Origin: Tepidimonas alkaliphilus
GTDB taxonomy: Bacteria; Pseudomonadota; Gammaproteobacteria; Burkholderiales; Burkholderiaceae_C
Direction of reading: 5' to 3'
Assembly: GCF_007556595.1 (NCBI RefSeq)
Contig: NZ_VJNB01000006.1
Span: forward strand, 62,001 to 126,000
DNA: 64,000 nucleotides
The stretch's first letter is position 1, and each line of letters begins with the position of its first letter. Positions 2,764 through 28,694 of the stretch are shown piece by piece. Under the pieces are notes generated by a model. The model ran no database searches, was not told the origin of the DNA, and saw only the letters and a list, made by a program, of their open reading frames with translations. A program made the translations under genes and the position numbers.

Positions 2764-5013
2764 TTACGGCAGCGCAAGCGTCGGCCAGCGCAGCAGCATC
2801 GTCTCGCCATTGCTGCCGTCCACCCCGTCGTTGTCGGTAACGGCAAACCAATGGCCCGCGGCGTCGCGGGTCAGCCCCTCCAGCTTGTCCGGCACGAAGC
2901 CGCCATGCGCCGCCAGATCCGGCACGACGTCGCGCACCAGGCGCTTGGCCAGCACCGGCACCGGCGACTGCCCCGGGGCCGCGGGGGCCACGCCGCGCAC
3001 CGACACGAACGAGAGCCGCTTCAGCGCTTGCGGGCCAAATTGGTTGTCGCGCTCGATCAGCACGAAGGCGTCGTCGCCGACGGCCACCAGCTCCGACATG
3101 CCCACCCACGAGCCCTCGAGTCGCGGCGTCTCCAGCGGCACGTGCCAGACGCCCCATTCGCCGCTGGCAGGCCGATAGCGCAACAGCTTGACGTGGCCCT
3201 TGGGGTCGTCCTTCCACTCGCGCTGCACGATCGCCCAGACGGCCTCGTCGGCGCCGCGGCCCGTCACCGCCACGCCTTCCAGGCCGAAGCGGGTGGCGTG
3301 GCGCGCGATCGCTTCCGGCAGCGCCACCTCGCGCACCACGCGCCCCTCGGCGTCGAGCTGGATCAGCAGATTGGGCCGCGGCGCGCCCTTGGCGTCGGGG
3401 TCGCCTTCCGAGGCCAGCCAGAAACCGCCGTCCGCACGCACCGCGATCCCCTCGCCGTCGTAGCCGACCGGCTGGCCGTCGCGGGTCACGGTCAGACGCC
3501 GCACGATGCGCGCTGGATGGCGCGTGGCGTCGATTTCATACAGGTAGGTTTCGGCAAAGAAGCTGTCCGACACCGCCCACAGCCGGCCCGGGCGCTGCGG
3601 ATCGGCCGCCAGCCCCGACAGCGCCCCCCACGGGATCGGGCGGCCCTGCGCGTCGTCGTCGGACTGCAGCATCGGGTACGGCGGCGCGGCGTCGCGGGGC
3701 CGCTCGACCCAGCGGTAGATGGTCAGACCAGCCCGGGCGCCCTTGTCCACTTCGCTGGCCACCACCAGCAGGCCGCGCTTGGGCAGCGCCAGCAGGCCTT
3801 CCGGCCCCTGCAACGCCGGCAGCGCCTGCAGCGGCATCGGCGCGCGCCCCGGCCCCTCGTCGTGCCACACCGTCACAAGGCTGGAGCGCTCCGAGCCGAC
3901 GAAGAACAGCCGCTGACCGCCGAAGGTGCCGACCGCCAGCCCTTCCGGCTCGTTGCCCTTGGCGCGCGAGCGCTTGTCCGGATAGTGCCCGAGCCGCACC
4001 GCCCAGTGCTCCAGCAACGCGCCGCTGTCCCACAGCACGCGCCCCTGGCGGTCGAAGATGGTGATGCCGCGCGAGCCGCCGACCCAGTCGCCCTCGTTGG
4101 CGGTGACAAAGCGTTCGTCGTCCAGCCACGCCACGGCATCCGGCTCGCGCACGAGCCCAGTGCGCCGCTCATTCAACACGATGCGCCCATCGGTGGTCGC
4201 GTCGATGCCGTCCAGATCCACCGCGCCGGCGCTGAAGTGGCCGACCACTTGCCGCCGCGCCACGTCCACCAGCACCAGATGGTTGTTCTCCTGCAGGGAG
4301 ACGACCGCAAGCCCCTGCCGGTTGACGTGCACGAACTCGGGCTCCGGATCCTGTGGCGCCACCGCCGCCAGACCGCTTAGCGAGACGGGGTGGATCCGCG
4401 TGCAATCCGGCAGGCCGCCGGCGCGCACCGGCACGATCGACAGGTTGCCCCCGGGAAGCTGCGGCAGCTTGCCCTTGTCGAGCTTCTCGTCACGTTCGTT
4501 CTCGATCACGATCACCGCATGACGCCCCTGCGGGTCGAACGCAATGGCATCGGGTTGCCCGAAAAGCGGGCAGCGCTCCACCACGCGCCCGCGCCGCCAG
4601 TCCAACGCCAGCAGTTCGCCCTGCGGCATCGCGTGATCGGTCGTCTGGTCCACCACCACCCAGGCGTAGCGGCCGCGCACCGCCACCGAGGTCGGCTCGC
4701 CAGAAACCTCGATCAGACCGCCCGGACGCGGCCGGGCCGGGTCGCGCAGATCGACAAGGCCAACTGCGCGGCGCTGGCTGTCGGTGTAGAGCAGCCAGCG
4801 GCCGTCGGCGCTGGCGGCCACGATCTCGGCCACCGCCGGCTTGGCCTCGGTACCGGCCGGGGCGTTGCGCGCCGCTTCGAACACCGCGACGCGCTCAAAC
4901 CAGCCGCCGGCCCACGCGGGCGCCAACCCAAGCCCCCACGCCAACCCCATGGCGGCCAATGGGCCTGCCTTCATCCAGCGCCGACCCCGCGCTGCGTCTC
5001 GCTTGGCTTGCAT
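2764..5013 (-). CDS. Esterase-like activity of phytase family protein, exported
   Basis: 749 residues. The N-terminus carries a signal sequence ending in APAWA|GG; with the start at 5013 it includes an Arg-Arg pair (GRRWMK) that could make it Tat-dependent. A shorter start at 4974 would leave a plain Sec signal. The N-terminal ~430 residues look like a beta-propeller repeat region (e.g. IAFDPQGRHAVIVIEN, VAWLDDERFVTANEGDW). The C-terminal ~300 residues carry the phytase-like pattern ALSGLAADPQRPGRLWAVSDS, YDGEGIAVR, FWLASEGD and the ending KLEGLTRDAAGHWFAVTDNDG. These large proteins are periplasmic or surface calcium-binding esterases of poorly known substrate. Proximity to phoX suggests organic-phosphate use, but this is inference. 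Confidence 0.8.
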   Translation of the reverse strand: MQAKRDAARGRRWMKAGPLAAMGLAWGLGLAPAWAGGWFERVAVFEAARNAPAGTEAKPAVAEIVAASADGRWLLYTDSQRRAVGLVDLRDPARPRPGGLIEVSGEPTSVAVRGRYAWVVVDQTTDHAMPQGELLALDWRRGRVVERCPLFGQPDAIAFDPQGRHAVIVIENERDEKLDKGKLPQLPGGNLSIVPVRAGGLPDCTRIHPVSLSGLAAVAPQDPEPEFVHVNRQGLAVVSLQENNHLVLVDVARRQVVGHFSAGAVDLDGIDATTDGRIVLNERRTGLVREPDAVAWLDDERFVTANEGDWVGGSRGITIFDRQGRVLWDSGALLEHWAVRLGHYPDKRSRAKGNEPEGLAVGTFGGQRLFFVGSERSSLVTVWHDEGPGRAPMPLQALPALQGPEGLLALPKRGLLVVASEVDKGARAGLTIYRWVERPRDAAPPYPMLQSDDDAQGRPIPWGALSGLAADPQRPGRLWAVSDSFFAETYLYEIDATRHPARIVRRLTVTRDGQPVGYDGEGIAVRADGGFWLASEGDPDAKGAPRPNLLIQLDAEGRVVREVALPEAIARHATRFGLEGVAVTGRGADEAVWAIVQREWKDDPKGHVKLLRYRPASGEWGVWHVPLETPRLEGSWVGMSELVAVGDDAFVLIERDNQFGPQALKRLSFVSVRGVAPAAPGQSPVPVLAKRLVRDVVPDLAAHGGFVPDKLEGLTRDAAGHWFAVTDNDGVDGSNGETMLLRWPTLALP

Positions 5014-23495: not shown

Positions 23496-23897
23496 TCAGC
23501 TTGCCTGCATGGCCCGCTGCGCGGCCTGCGCCAGAAAGCCCGAGCGCGTCATGCCGTGCGCGCGGGCGTACTCGTCCACACGCGCCAGCAGCCGGCGTGG
23601 CAGGGTGATGTTGATCTTCTCGGCCTTGCCCTCGAAGCGCGACGTGTCCACCTCCACCAGACCCCAGACCCAGCCGGCGAACTGCGGATCGGCCTGCCAG
23701 TGATCCAGCGGACGCGGCAGCGGGATGTCGCGTCCGTCTTCGGCCAGCAGCTCCAGATGGGCCTCGATGGCCTCCACGGCGTTGGCAAACGCCTGCTCGG
23801 CGGTATCGCCAGCGGAAAAGCACCCCGGCAGATCGGGCACGACCACGCCCCATGCCGTCGTGTCGGTGCCGGGTTCCAGCGCGATGGGGAATTTCAT
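23496..23897 (-). CDS. hicB: HicB-family antitoxin
   Basis: 133 residues. N-terminal partial RNase-H-like HicB fold (AWGVVVPDLPGCFSAGDTAEQAFANAVEAIEAHLELL) and a C-terminal ribbon-helix-helix with KINITLPRRLLARVDEYARAHGMTRSGFLAQAAQRAM, which should bind the operator. It neutralises the HicA mRNA interferase. AAGGAG precedes the ATG. It follows hicA by only 3 bp. The interval 23287-23495 between it and pyk shows no gene. Confidence 0.92.
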   Translation of the reverse strand: MKFPIALEPGTDTTAWGVVVPDLPGCFSAGDTAEQAFANAVEAIEAHLELLAEDGRDIPLPRPLDHWQADPQFAGWVWGLVEVDTSRFEGKAEKINITLPRRLLARVDEYARAHGMTRSGFLAQAAQRAMQAS

Positions 23898-23900
23898 GGT

Positions 23901-24095
23901 TCAGCTCCTTCGGTCAGGTATGCCGGCTTGCTTGAGCAGCTTGTGCACAAGCCCTGCGCCGAGGTCCTTCTTCGGATGCGGGACGCTGAGGTGGCCGGGT
24001 CGATCCGCATGCCGAAAGATGGGGTGACTGCCCTTGACGGCGCGCAGCGTCCAGCCGTGCGCCTCGAGCAGCCTGATGAGTTCCCGGCTGTTCAC
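23901..24095 (-). CDS. hicA: HicA-family toxin (mRNA interferase)
   Basis: 64 residues from a GTG at 24095, the position where the family start (NSRELIRLLEAHGW) falls; an upstream ATG at 24143 adds 16 non-family residues. The double-stranded-RNA-binding-like fold has the catalytic GSH (His24) in VKGSHPIFRH and the ending LSVPHPKKDLGAGLVHKLLKQAGI. HicA cleaves mRNA and tmRNA when not bound by HicB. Toxin first, antitoxin second is the standard order. Confidence 0.92.
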   Translation of the reverse strand: MNSRELIRLLEAHGWTLRAVKGSHPIFRHADRPGHLSVPHPKKDLGAGLVHKLLKQAGIPDRRS

Positions 24096-25929
24096 GGTGT
24101 GGATTGTATCCACCAAAGCCCGAACGATCAACACCATACACACCTAGGACCTGCATCGTCATCCCGCCCTTGCGATTGCACCCAAGCCCGCAGGCCGACA
24201 AGAAAGCCCCGGCCCGCGATGCTACCCTTGCGCCATGACCCCGCAGGCCTTCATCGCCAAATGGTTCGCCGGCGGCGCAGCCGACGGCCTCTCGGAGCGC
24301 GCCGGCGCGCAGGCGCATTTCATCGACCTGTGCCGGCTGCTGGACGTGCCCGAGCCCGCCGACCCCGACGCCTGCTGCTTCGAGCGGGGCCTGAAGAAAA
24401 CCGGCGGCGCAAGCGGCTGGGCCGATGTGTGGAAGCGCGGCTGCTTTGCCTGGGAATACAAGGCGCCTGGGCGCGATCTCGCCGCCGCGCTGCGCCAGCT
24501 CATGACCTACGCGCTGGCGCTGGACAACCCGCCGCTGCTCATCGTCAGCGACCGCCAGCGCATCGAAATCCACACCCACTTCACCGGCACGCCCAGCGAA
24601 TGCCACGTCTTCGAGCTACACGACCTGCTCGATGCGCGGCAGCGCCAGCGCCTGCGCTGGGCCTGGACGGAGCCCGAGCGCTTTCGCCCCAGCCGCACCA
24701 CGCAGGACGTCACCGCCTCCGCCGCCGCGCGCTTTGCCGAGCTGGCGCAGCGGCTCACCGCGCGCGGCCACGACCCACAGGCGGTGGCGCACTTCCTCAT
24801 CCAGTGCCTCTTCTGCCTCTTTGCCGAAGACGCGGGGCTTTTGCCCGCGCGGCTTTTTGAGCGCATCCTCGACAAAAGCGCCGCCGCGCCGGACAAGCTT
24901 GCGCCGCGCCTGGCCGAGCTCTTTGCCGCCATGCGCTTGGGCGGCGACTTCCTGCTGGAAGACATCGCCTGGTTCAACGGCGGGCTGTTCGAGACGATTG
25001 CCCCGCTGCCGCTTTCCGCCGAGGATGCGGCCATCCTGCGCGAGGCCGCGCGCATGGACTGGTCGCAGATCGAGCCCTCGATCTTTGGCACGCTGTTTGA
25101 GCGCGGGCTGGACCCGGCCAAGCGCAGCCAGCTCGGCGCGCACTACACCGACCCGGCCACGATTGCCAAGCTCATCGACCCGCTGATCGTGCAGCCGCTT
25201 TCCCGCGAATGGGCCGCCGCCCGCGCCGTCATCGAGCGGGAGATGGCCCGCTACGCCGCCGGCGGCAGGGGCTCGCACACCGCCCGCCAGGCCGCGCAGG
25301 CGGCCTTCCTCGGCTATCTGGAGCGGCTGAAAAACTTTCGCGTGCTCGATCCGGCCTGCGGCTCGGGCAACTTCCTGTATCTGGCGCTGCGCGCGCTCAA
25401 AGACCTGGAGCACCGCGCCAACCTGGACGCCGAGGCGCTGGGCCTTGAGCGCCAGCTCGGCATCGAGACGAGCCCCGCCAACGTGCTCGGCATCGAACTC
25501 AACCCCTACGCCGCGGAGCTGGCGCGCGTCACGGTGTGGATCGGCGAAATCCAGTGGATGATGAAGCACGGCTACCCGATCCGCCGCGACCCCATTCTGG
25601 CGCGGCTCGATCACATCGAATGCCGCGACGCGCTGCTGGCCCCCGACGGCGGCGAAGCCGAGTGGCCCGAGGCCCACGTCATCCTCGGCAACCCGCCGTT
25701 TCTGGGCGACAAGAAGATGCGCGCGGAACTGGGCGACGCCTACACCGAGCGGCTGCGCCAGACTTACGCGGGCCGCGTGCCGGGCGGGGCGGACCTCGTC
25801 ACCTACTGGTTCGAGAAGGCGCGCGCGGCCATCGAGGCTGGGCGGGCGAGCCGCGCGGGGCTGGTGGCCACCAACTCCATCCGCGGCGGGGCCAACCGGC
25901 GGGTCTTGGATCGTATCCTTGACAGCGCC

Positions 25930-26190
25930 AAGGCCCGATCCAACAATCCTGGCGATCACTACGGTGACCTTCGACACCCTGGAGCTGACCCGCATCCTGA
26001 AGGAAGCGGGGCTGCCGCCGGAGCAGGCCGAGGCGGTGGTGCGCGCCATCGTCCGCTCGCAGGAGGGCATGGTGACCCGCGACTATCTGGACATCCGGCT
26101 GGCCGAGCTGAAAACCGACCTCATCAAGTGGATGACGGGGGCGCTGGTCGCCCAGGCGGCGGTGATCGCGGCGCTGGTCAAGCTGCTCTG
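25930..26190 (+). mobile_element. 261-bp in-frame insertion cassette within the restriction gene
   Basis: Boundaries are inferred from the protein level: family-like sequence stops after LDSA and resumes at TIFEAW. The insert is about 261 bp, divisible by three, has no stop in the host frame, and contains a DUF1640-like gene in another frame. I found no terminal inverted repeat or exact target duplication. Edges may be off by a few bases. Confidence 0.65.
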
Positions 26191-26191
26191 A
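25964..26191 (+). CDS. DUF1640/CCDC90-like small membrane protein, cassette-borne
   Basis: 75 residues from a GTG at 25964 (a TTG further upstream is possible). TFDTLELTRILKEAGLPPEQAEAVV is followed by a coiled-coil segment with LAELKTDLIKW and one C-terminal membrane helix (about 51-74). It is clearly paralogous to the gene at 48335: both share PEQAEA, LAEL, DL-KW and the terminal hydrophobic helix. The wider family resembles the mitochondrial calcium uniporter regulator MCUR1/CCDC90, but bacterial function is unknown. It overlaps the restriction gene in a different frame and ends exactly where the family sequence of that gene resumes. Confidence 0.75.
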   Translation: MTFDTLELTRILKEAGLPPEQAEAVVRAIVRSQEGMVTRDYLDIRLAELKTDLIKWMTGALVAQAAVIAALVKLL

Positions 26192-27397
26192 CGATCTTCG
26201 AGGCCTGGAGCGACGAGCCCTGGTTCAACGACGGCGCGGCGGTGCGGGTGTCGCTGGTGTGCTTTGGCCGCCACGACGGGCCCGCGCGGCTGGATGGGCG
26301 GGAGGTGGCGGCGATTCATGCCGACCTCACGGCGGCGCAGGGGCAAGAGGCGGGGCTGGACCTGACGCGGGCGGTGCCGCTGGCGGAAAACAAGGGTGTG
26401 GCCTTTCAGGGGCCGGTGCTGGTCGGGCCGTTTGAGATTGAGGGCGACGTGGCGCGCGCCTGGCTGGCAGCCCCCAACCCGCACGGACGACCCAACAGCG
26501 ACGTGCTGCGGCCGCTGACCAATGGCAAGGACATCACCGCGCGCAGCCGCGGCCTTTGGGTGGTGGACTTCGCCGCGATGAGCGAAGCCGACGCAAGCCT
26601 CTACGAACTGCCGTTCGAATACGTGCGCCAGCACGTCAAGCCGATGCGGGACAACAACCGCGACGCCTCACGCCGTAGCCGTTGGTGGCTGCACGGTCGG
26701 CTTGGCACGGACTGGCGCGCCGCAACCGCAAGCCTGCCGCGTTACATCGCGACAACACGTGTTGCCAAACACCGCACTTTTGTGTGGTTTCCGTCGGTAT
26801 GCTGGCCATCTGACGCTGTCGTCGCCATCGCCCGCGCCGACGACGCCACCTTCGGCATCCTGCACAGCCGCTTTCACGAACTCTGGTCGCTGCGGCTGGG
26901 CACGTCGCTTGAGGATCGGCCCCGCTACACCCCCACCACCACCTTCGAGACCTTCCCCTTCCCGCCGGGCTTGACGCCTGCCGACACCGCGCACCAGCAA
27001 ACCGAAACGCTCGCGGACGGCGCGCGCATCCCGGCTGATCTTCCGCCCGAGGCGCGCCCCGGCGCCGAGGCCATCGCCCGCGCCGCGCATCGGCTCCACA
27101 CCCTGCGCGAAGCGTGGCTCAACCCGCCCGAGTGGGTGCAGTGGCAGCGCACGCCCGAGGAGGAGGCCGCCGGCTTTCCGTCCCGGCCCGTGCCGAGGCC
27201 CGGCTTTGAGGCGCAGCTCAAAGCCCGCACGCTCACCCACCTCTACAACCAGCGCCCGGCGTGGCTGGCGCAGGCGCACGAAGCGCTCGATGCGGCGGTG
27301 GCCGCCGCCTACGGCTGGGCCGACTACACCCCCGCCATGCCCGACGAGGAAATCCTTGCGCGCCTGCTCGCCCTCAACCGCGCGCGCCGGCCATCGG

Positions 27398-27613
27398 TCA
27401 TAGTGCCGAGAAGAGCCCAAGCTTATGCACACGCCAATGCATCGCCGCCTGCGAGACGTCGAACATGCGGGCAAGCCCCTCCAGCGTCTCGGCCAAGCCC
27501 TCCTGCATGACGAAGCGCAGCGCATCGGCCGGCATCAGGATGGCGGCGGCAAACGCGTTGGCTTCGCGCTCCTGTCCGCCAGCCGCCAGCGTGAACGAGT
27601 CCGGCGCATTGTA
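27398..27613 (-). pseudogene. ImmA/IrrE-type metallopeptidase, C-terminal remnant
   Basis: About 70 codons up to the IS edge. EREANAFAAAILMPADALRF followed by LARMFDVSQAAMHWRVHKLGLF is the typical end of ImmA/IrrE peptidases, including the third zinc-ligand region (EREANAFA). The HExxH N-terminal half is missing; the IS element begins where it should be, and I do not see the missing half beyond the IS. ImmA proteases cleave phage or mobile-element repressors, so the gene fits the surrounding accessory DNA. Confidence 0.7.
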
Positions 27614-28649
27614 TGAGTCCACCACCTTTGGCACTCGGGGTGGTGTTGGAGCAGGCATGATAGTGGGGGCCTCTGTCCGAGGCGATGGTGTGGACGCTGG
27701 GCGTTGTAGAAGACGAGCCAGTTGGCCAGTTTCTGGTTGAAGAGGGCCAAATCCGTCAAGAGCAGGTCCTCGTGGTCGTCGACGAAGGACTCCTGCACGG
27801 TGCGGTTGAAGCGCTCGACGTGCGCCTTCATCTTGGGGGAGTTGGGGTAGGTGTAGCAGCGCTGGATGCCATGCTGCTTGAGCAGCTTGGCAAAGCCGGC
27901 TTCGAACTCGGAGCCGTTGTCTGACAGCACCACCTTGGGTTTGGCGGGCAGCAGCGACAGGATGGCGGCCATGGCCGCCTCGGTGTGGCAGGCGGCCTTG
28001 CTGGGCAAGGCCACGGCCAGGCCGAAGGCGCTGGCTGGATCGATGCAAGTCAGGATAGAGCGGCGCAGGCCATCGTGCACGCGCTCGACGGTGTCCACCG
28101 CCAGGCACTGCAGCGGCGCGGGGCGCGCCCCGCGGGGCTTGCGCGATTTGCGCTGGCGGCGCACGGGCTTGGGGCGGCCGCGGCGGTCGATGCGCGCTGG
28201 CGCATGGCGCATCTTATCGGCGGCTGAGGCGATGATGCGCCCGATGGTGGAGACCGAAGGCAGCTGCAGGCCATGCTGGCGGCGCCAGGGCTCAAGCAAC
28301 GCGTGCAGGCAAGGCCCAAGCCGAGATTGGGGTAGAGCCTGCGCAGATGGCGGATTCTGTGCACCAGGCGCGGATCATGGTGGCTCTGGCGCACCTGATG
28401 GGGCCGGCAGGACTTGGCCGCTAGCGCTGCGGGGTTGCCGCCGGCCTGGTGCAGCCTTTGGCACCAGCGATACAGCGTGCGCTCGGACACGCCAAAGGCA
28501 TCGATGGTGGCCGCCAGCCCGTGCCGATCCCAGAAATGCAGGATACGCAGCCTTTGTTGGGCATCCTTGGGGGTCATCTCCCCAAGATGCCCCAAGTGCG
28601 CTACCCGGTCAAAGCCCCGGATGCCGTATCCGATGCGATGAACCTGCAT
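27535..28649 (-). pseudogene. IS transposase (rve/DDE integrase core), frameshifted
   Basis: The N-terminal part starts at the ATG 28649 (AAGGAG upstream) and has a helix-turn-helix (FGVSERTLYRWCQRLHQAG). After LRRLYPNLG near 28320 the frame is lost and continues one frame over at CLHALLEPWRRQHGL, running through the catalytic core: AVDTVERVHDG and ILTCIDPASAFG (first Asp), VVLSDNGSEF (second Asp), and HVERFNRTVQESF (Glu). A single-base deletion explains this; programmed frameshifting is less likely without an obvious slippery site. The C-terminus has no stop inside the element and runs ~26 codons into the ImmA remnant. Confidence 0.75.
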
Positions 28650-28694
28650 GGCCTTGCTCCTTCGTCGAAGGAGTGCCAAAGGTGTCTGAGCTCA
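27614..28694 (-). mobile_element. Insertion sequence, IS481-like, about 1.08 kb
   Basis: Terminal inverted repeats are visible: CACCTTTGGCACTC (27623-27636) and its exact complement GAGTGCCAAAGGTG (28671-28684), with outer ends TGAG and CTCA. The element carries one transposase on the minus strand. No exact target-site duplication is seen, and the flanks are fragments of different genes (ImmA on the left, a phage protease on the right), so an associated deletion is likely. Confidence 0.75.

Follow-up and report, generated by a model that had tools for sequence, protein, structure and literature searches.

How can a complete gene come to lie inside another protein-coding gene, in a different reading frame, with both remaining readable? 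The question was raised by a restriction gene of Tepidimonas alkaliphilus, into which, according to the initial annotation, a small DUF1640-like gene had been inserted in frame at positions 25930-26190. All positions refer to the window, by which we mean the whole stretch of 64,000 nucleotides that was analyzed.

The host gene (24235-27510, plus strand) comprises 1091 codons when the insert is read through and encodes an MmeI-like type IIL restriction-methylase. Its product matches the Pfam domains MmeI_hel, MmeI_Mtase and MmeI_TRD (MmeI_C scores below its cut-off), and its best PADLOC model is REase_MTase_IIG (type IIG restriction-methylase, E 2e-277). The nearest solved structure by sequence is MmeI (5hr4, E 1.7e-48), and the model of the host protein matches the same fold (Foldseek E 1e-30). 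Residues D64, E74 and K76 and the methyltransferase motifs DPACGSGNFL and NPPF are kept, and nuclease, helical spacer, gamma-class N6 methyltransferase, target-recognition domain (TRD) and C-terminal helices are combined in one chain. Domain order, nuclease and methyltransferase motifs and fold are those of the MmeI type IIL enzymes (5hr4; PMC4833311), but the window enzyme has about 87 extra residues between methyltransferase and TRD, contributed by a foreign gene in another frame. Compared with Tepidimonas aquatica, the gene showed an NG86 omega of 0.25 over codons 1-561, left of the insert, and of 0.18 over 50 codons right of it. By this measure it is conserved outside the insert, and the value of 0.25 is at most an indirect sign that the enzyme may still restrict and methylate.

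Near its 3' end (27387-27510), the window gene seems to be 2 bases short relative to T. aquatica and to the uninterrupted gene L142 (see below), so that its last few codons would give way to ~38 other residues, a tail that is predicted to be disordered. A HicA/HicB toxin-antitoxin pair lies immediately upstream of the gene (23496-24143, minus strand). An IS481-like transposase sequence, scoring below the NCBIfam cut-off, occupies 27398-28679 (minus strand) and is fused to sequence that we take to resemble the end of an ImmA-type peptidase gene.

That the restriction gene carries a genuine insertion, as initially annotated, is borne out by relatives without it. L142, an IMG/VR contig that shares even the TRD with the window, has an uninterrupted gene that is 90.2% identical to the window gene left of the insert and 88.7% right of it. 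The alignment covers 24200-25917 and 26185-27387 of the window; only 6 bp separate these blocks in L142, versus 267 in the window, a net gain of 261 bp. L142 also matches a window stretch of 798 bp upstream of the gene (90.98%), with ~1.6 kb of additional sequence separating the two. The annotated length of 261 bp thus stood, as did its being a multiple of three with no host-frame stop anywhere; the placement was accurate to within ~6 bp, the best borders from the comparison with L142, plus G003 and G004, being 25924-26184 (plus strand, ends uncertain by a few bp). The initial annotation had proposed a search for uninterrupted orthologues, and these exist in L142 and also in the G003/G004 comparison. 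At the protein level, the 87 codons, absent in close relatives, lie between codons ~564 and ~651, between methyltransferase and target-recognition domains, and the sequence I-V-E-A-L-P-I-F of L142 becomes I-L-D-(87 codons)-A-L-T-I-F.

The same insertion is found in T. aquatica CLN-1 (G001, L017/L046) at the identical base and without any indel, with 19 differences in 280 bp; upstream of its host gene lies, as in the window, a gene starting like the window's pyruvate kinase. Misassembly is therefore very unlikely, and was rejected because separate assemblies agree (T. aquatica and the Methylococcaceae loci L104 and L056). We also rejected an ordinary conserved enzyme domain: empty relatives exist, the inserted residues are predicted to be disordered, and the host frame shows no selection within them. 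A self-splicing intron was discarded as well, as no Rfam match was obtained at E <= 1 in 25700-26400, and since the host frame is open, splicing is not needed.

Neither terminal inverted repeats nor matching direct repeats were detected at the ends of the four inserts examined, and the genome contains a single copy of the segment, with no further match longer than 51 bp. The marks of IS, MITE or RPE-type elements (terminal inverted repeats or a palindrome, target duplication, repeated copies) were not found for the insert. Left ends differ between lineages; the 3' join CTxACGATCTTC is identical in the window and L056. The stop of the small gene falls within resumed host-like sequence (GCTCTGACGATCTTC in the window versus GCCCTGCCGATCTTC in L142). 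At its 3' end, the small gene (GCTCTGAC) is similar to the host target, GCCCTGCC, as might be expected after joining at a microhomology.

The nested ORF (25964-26191, plus strand) starts at a GTG, encodes 75 amino acids in frame +1 relative to the host, and ends with a TGA (26189-26191, plus strand) overlapping the host codons CTG-ACG. An alternative upstream start is the TTG at 25919. The 90-residue product of the longer ORF scored just under the cut-off for the CCDC90-like family PF07798 (32.9 versus 33.5 bits, E 7e-8), and a family alignment of 26 rows found human CCDC90B (6h9m, E 5e-6). The protein has the FDT head motif, a V-T-R neck and a C-terminal hydrophobic helix, from which a membrane anchor at the C-terminus may be supposed. 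AlphaFold predicted helices at residues 5-14, 19-34 and 39-74 (mean pLDDT 89.5); a Foldseek search with the monomer model gave no match at E <= 0.001, and none of the PADLOC defence families matched the two small proteins scanned. By head motif and coiled coil the ORF belongs to the DUF1640/CCDC90 family, marginally so by Pfam. FDT head, [VA]-T-[KR] neck, C-terminal hydrophobic helix and the 6h9m profile match are shared with family members such as MCUR1 and CCDC90B (PMC4786415, PMC7519068), but the window member is encoded inside another gene in a shifted frame. The genome has a second DUF1640-like gene (L009; 48329-48568, plus strand), which stands free and shares 39% identity with the nested copy.

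The insert also brings signals of its own. At its left edge is a promoter-like element, TTGACA-17-AACAAT (25919-25947, plus strand), which agrees with the consensus at 10 of 12 positions (mean 0.0 in 50 shuffles of 25800-26300) and whose hexamers are unchanged in T. aquatica. The initial annotation had called the small gene intact, which holds for the reading frame but not for the start codons of T. aquatica: the site of its two ATG codons (25946-25957, plus strand) reads ATGTCGGCGATG in T. aquatica versus ATCCTGGCGATC in the window, where differences at 25948 and 25957 have removed both. The starts left in the window are GTG 25964 or TTG 25919, and by eye no clear Shine-Dalgarno sequence precedes the gene there. 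In L104, GGAGG stands five bases before the ATG of the small gene, and in L056, GGGGAG stands four bases before it (both by eye). The second T. aquatica ATG is situated approximately where transcription from the promoter would begin, so a leaderless start is conceivable. With both ATG codons lost, expression of the small gene in the window strain is uncertain, and it may fail there, given also the lack of a clear Shine-Dalgarno sequence.

Substitutions inside the insert follow the frame of the small gene and not that of the host. The 19 differences between window and T. aquatica all lie within 25930-26190, with 10, 6 and 3 at DUF codon positions 3, 1 and 2, respectively. Read in the DUF frame, the comparison gave 6 synonymous and 5 nonsynonymous changes (omega 0.31, P 0.048, a weak test with 11 changes), versus 2 and 9 for the same stretch in the host frame (omega 1.79). 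For L056 and L047 (L047a), the DUF frame had 8 synonymous and 1 nonsynonymous changes (omega 0.04, P 5e-5) and the host frame 0 and 8. The small gene is therefore the selected frame in the insert, and the host frame need only stay open. Its openness was dropped as proof of selection on a fusion protein, because with local codon usage it is expected by chance with probabilities of 0.28 (window), 0.52, 0.46, 0.09 and 0.41 in the five cases; five of 32 free DUF1640 copies (L048 set aside) are likewise open in that frame. In the five nested copies tested, between 4 and 12 stops interrupt the other frame, so that only one insertion frame could be tolerated.

In the AlphaFold model of the host protein (24 sequences, mean pLDDT 76.4), residues 565-649 had pLDDT values under 50, with blocks of ten at 24-33 and no secondary structure, between a helix at 552-563 and a strand at 653-662; the remainder was mostly folded. 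The inserted residues are thus predicted to form a disordered loop. Of the annotated fusion with an 87-residue Gly/Arg-rich insertion, the open frame was upheld; the peptide itself shows no selection of its own and is predicted to be disordered. For MmeI, PMC4833311 assigns residues 301-620 to the methyltransferase and 621-825 to the TRD, which places the insert near the seam of the two domains. Other MmeI-type genes have extra bases at this seam with no DUF1640 match (L035, +105 bases; L177-L179, +75). In L030, an MmeI-type gene from another family, the same loop (~2641, reverse strand) contains a palindrome that we take to be REP-like and through which the reading frame continues (PLPPGEGPGVRE), indicating that the loop tolerates insertions.

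The annotated arrangement is not confined to Tepidimonas. Two Methylococcaceae loci contain a nested DUF1640 gene at the same site, on the same strand and in the same frame, with the host frame open: L056, from a MAG (host 58% and DUF 51% identical), and L104 (G513), on a contig of more than 4.2 Mb (host 59% identical over codons 1-1051, DUF 60% over 68 residues). The host gene of L056 is damaged, its first 218 codons being without a match and its TRD changing frame. In L047 the small gene is kept, and only fragments of the restriction gene are present within the 8.2-kb locus; at 3629-4246 of this locus, two different DUF1640 genes stand in tandem, the second occupying the place of the C-terminal half of the restriction gene. 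L106 (G520) retains an in-frame deletion remnant of the insert. A second site is used in L048, another MmeI gene that has decayed. Its DUF1640 gene follows the terminal FPWP motif of the TRD and precedes the C-terminal domain, again in frame +1 and with the enclosing ORF open. As the host genes of L056 and L048 have decayed, the case for an enzyme functioning with its insert comes from L104 and the two species of Tepidimonas. In G003, the first 500 codons are 98-99.7% identical to those of T. aquatica, after which a different sequence takes over at the seam, without the insert; the change lies near 25841, where G003 partly resembles G004. We read this as probable loss of the insert by recombination together with a TRD exchange.

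The host protein was matched (E <= 1e-3) in 37 of 120 relatives, a set that includes the genome of the window, and among the matches listed only those in the window and G001 ran through the insert. The class sample contained 12 matches in 369 genomes at 1e-60, with the insert in the window only. In the family of L056, five of 38 genomes matched at 1e-40: G487 and G513 have the nested gene, G488 has the small gene next to pieces of the host gene, G520 has the remnant, and G524 is empty; in the order, 13 of 251 matched at 1e-60, with the same two nested genes and the G520 remnant. DUF1640 (E <= 1e-3) was found in 9 of the 160 loci fetched with the host protein, a set that includes several views of one gene and shows both sides of the seam in 101 cases. 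These nine correspond to six genes, namely the window (L016), L017, L104, the L056 gene (L092 and L098), the L047 gene (L095) and the single remnant (L106/L109/L112). None of the 79 viral loci found with the host alignment contained DUF1640, and none of the 14 viral DUF1640 loci an MmeI-type match. On plasmids, 78 records matched the host; among the 40 listed, 25 cross the seam, omitting a stretch roughly as long as the insert, and the other 15 do not extend past the seam.

From the side of the small gene, four of 33 DUF1640 loci (L046, L047, L048 and L056) have an enclosing ORF of at least 150 amino acids on the same strand, all of MmeI type and at two sites, a rate biased upward because the set was found with the nested gene as query. 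One further enclosing ORF, in L138, had no Pfam match. A search of the DUF1640 loci collected by then with the host protein gave matches in L046, L047 and L056 only. Among the 25 of 58 Pfam families listed for 46 ORFs flanking free DUF1640 genes (picked by length), there was no restriction family and no common function. DUF1640 genes occur in 24 phage and 16 plasmid records; in L140, one phage record, a Bordetella phage DUF1640-like gene (3501-3764) stands alone on the strand opposite to its neighbours. In PMC3326045, a tail fibre of a T5-like phage is named DUF1640-like.

We then asked how often the nested state arose. In a tree of DUF1640 proteins (40 rows, 83 columns, 13 open forks), the nested label, given to five rows with L048 not among them, needs three changes, at least two of which are forced by starred branches; 5 of 500 shuffles were as low. 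Two changes could also be one gain and one loss. Free copies fall between the nested genes of Tepidimonas and Methylococcaceae. In the host tree (34 rows, six labelled nested, including the L106 remnant and the short L047 row), five changes are needed, at least four of them forced, and 146 of 500 shuffles were as low, so the nested hosts are not clustered. The trees suggest more than one capture without proving it. The simplest reading would be two captures at the methyltransferase-TRD loop (Tepidimonas; Methylococcaceae) and one at the L048 site.

Together, the above observations are consistent with repeated capture of a one-gene DUF1640 unit at a tolerant inter-domain loop, which is our best reading and, in our judgement, a moderately probable one. 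A free-standing unit of ~260 bp, composed of its own promoter and a DUF1640 ORF, would have been captured inside an MmeI-type gene, most likely by illegitimate recombination. The insert would have survived since it entered in the only frame that keeps the host free of stops, at a point able to accommodate a long disordered loop. This leaves room for two products, a full-length enzyme with a disordered loop of ~87 residues and, apart from it, a small coiled-coil protein of the membrane. Such captures would have occurred twice at the methyltransferase-TRD loop and once at the other MmeI site, and copies would later have been lost or moved when TRDs were exchanged by recombination at the seam. 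Of the initial proposal of a mobile or captured cassette, capture is well supported; mobility is so only in part, in that DUF1640 genes are nested at two MmeI sites and the trees favour, without proving it, more than a single capture, but end repeats are missing and the own genome holds a single copy.

The main alternative is a history of one ancient insertion into an MmeI gene that spread among restriction genes by recombination, with no second capture at the loop. Site, frame and 3' join are the same in the window and L056, the TRD exchange shows that the seam recombines, the DUF tree is small and leaves L048 unlabelled, and its counterpart for the hosts shows no more clustering than 146 of 500 shuffles. 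A single event is nevertheless at odds with the starred branches that part the nested DUF clades, with the free copies between them, with L142, which has the window's own TRD and no insert, and with the different site in L048; we regard it as possible but rather doubtful. The units might also be true mobile cassettes that prefer a site in MmeI genes and depend for their movement on a transposase or recombinase acting in trans. The use of the same loop in distant lineages, the phage and plasmid records and the lone opposite-strand phage gene would suit such a cassette, but the lack of repeats at the four inserts, the lack of a second genomic copy beyond short matches and the differing left ends make it quite improbable.

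Alternatively, the nested protein might be kept because it works with the restriction enzyme, for example as a tether or as a second output of the defence unit. The four enclosing ORFs, all of MmeI type, point in this direction. Against it, DUF1640 or its remnant was present in only 9 of 160 host loci (six genes) and in none of 79 viral ones, 25 of the 40 plasmid records listed lack about the insert length at the seam, in L047 the small gene has survived its host gene, and beyond L046, L047 and L056 the DUF1640 loci showed neither host-protein matches nor, among the flanking families listed, a restriction family; such coupling appears unlikely. An artefact (misassembly, a chance ORF or an ordinary conserved domain) could be suspected from the short ORF alone falling just below the Pfam cut-off, but is hardly credible in view of agreeing separate assemblies, uninterrupted relatives and selection in the DUF frame. 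A bolder extension of repeated capture is that each DUF1640 gene forms an autonomous unit, and that such units enter MmeI-type restriction genes time and again, and by preference, at loops between domains and in the single permissive frame. Each entry would create a dual-coding defence locus; its second product, a small coiled-coil protein of the membrane, would be under selection and might work with the enzyme or against it. We offer this only tentatively and would sooner doubt than expect it.

Phage morons are lone genes with their own signals, which the window unit resembles; it differs in being situated inside coding sequence without breaking the frame. Rickettsia palindromic elements and other MITE-like inserts likewise place foreign DNA in frame in a protein gene (PMC10969869), but the window unit contains a separate, selected gene in another frame, and no terminal repeats were found. 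No case of a gene nested in a restriction gene, or of a nested DUF1640 gene, appeared among the titles listed from the open-access literature searched. Within the scope of those titles, the novelty lies in an entire foreign gene that brings its own signals and persists within another gene via the one permissive frame, in several lineages.

To our knowledge, the role of the DUF1640 family in bacteria is not established; a 2019 study by Adlakha is said to deal with prokaryotic CCDC90 proteins. The nested gene gives a handle on this family, which is common to bacteria and mitochondria. Its recurrence in distantly related bacteria suggests that a defence gene can take in such a gene on more than one occasion, with both staying readable. 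Out-of-frame nested genes of bacteria are usually thought to arise by overprinting within an existing frame. With the nested DUF1640 gene, the capture of genes at protein loops becomes a route, open to test, by which overlapping genes and new loops in proteins could arise.
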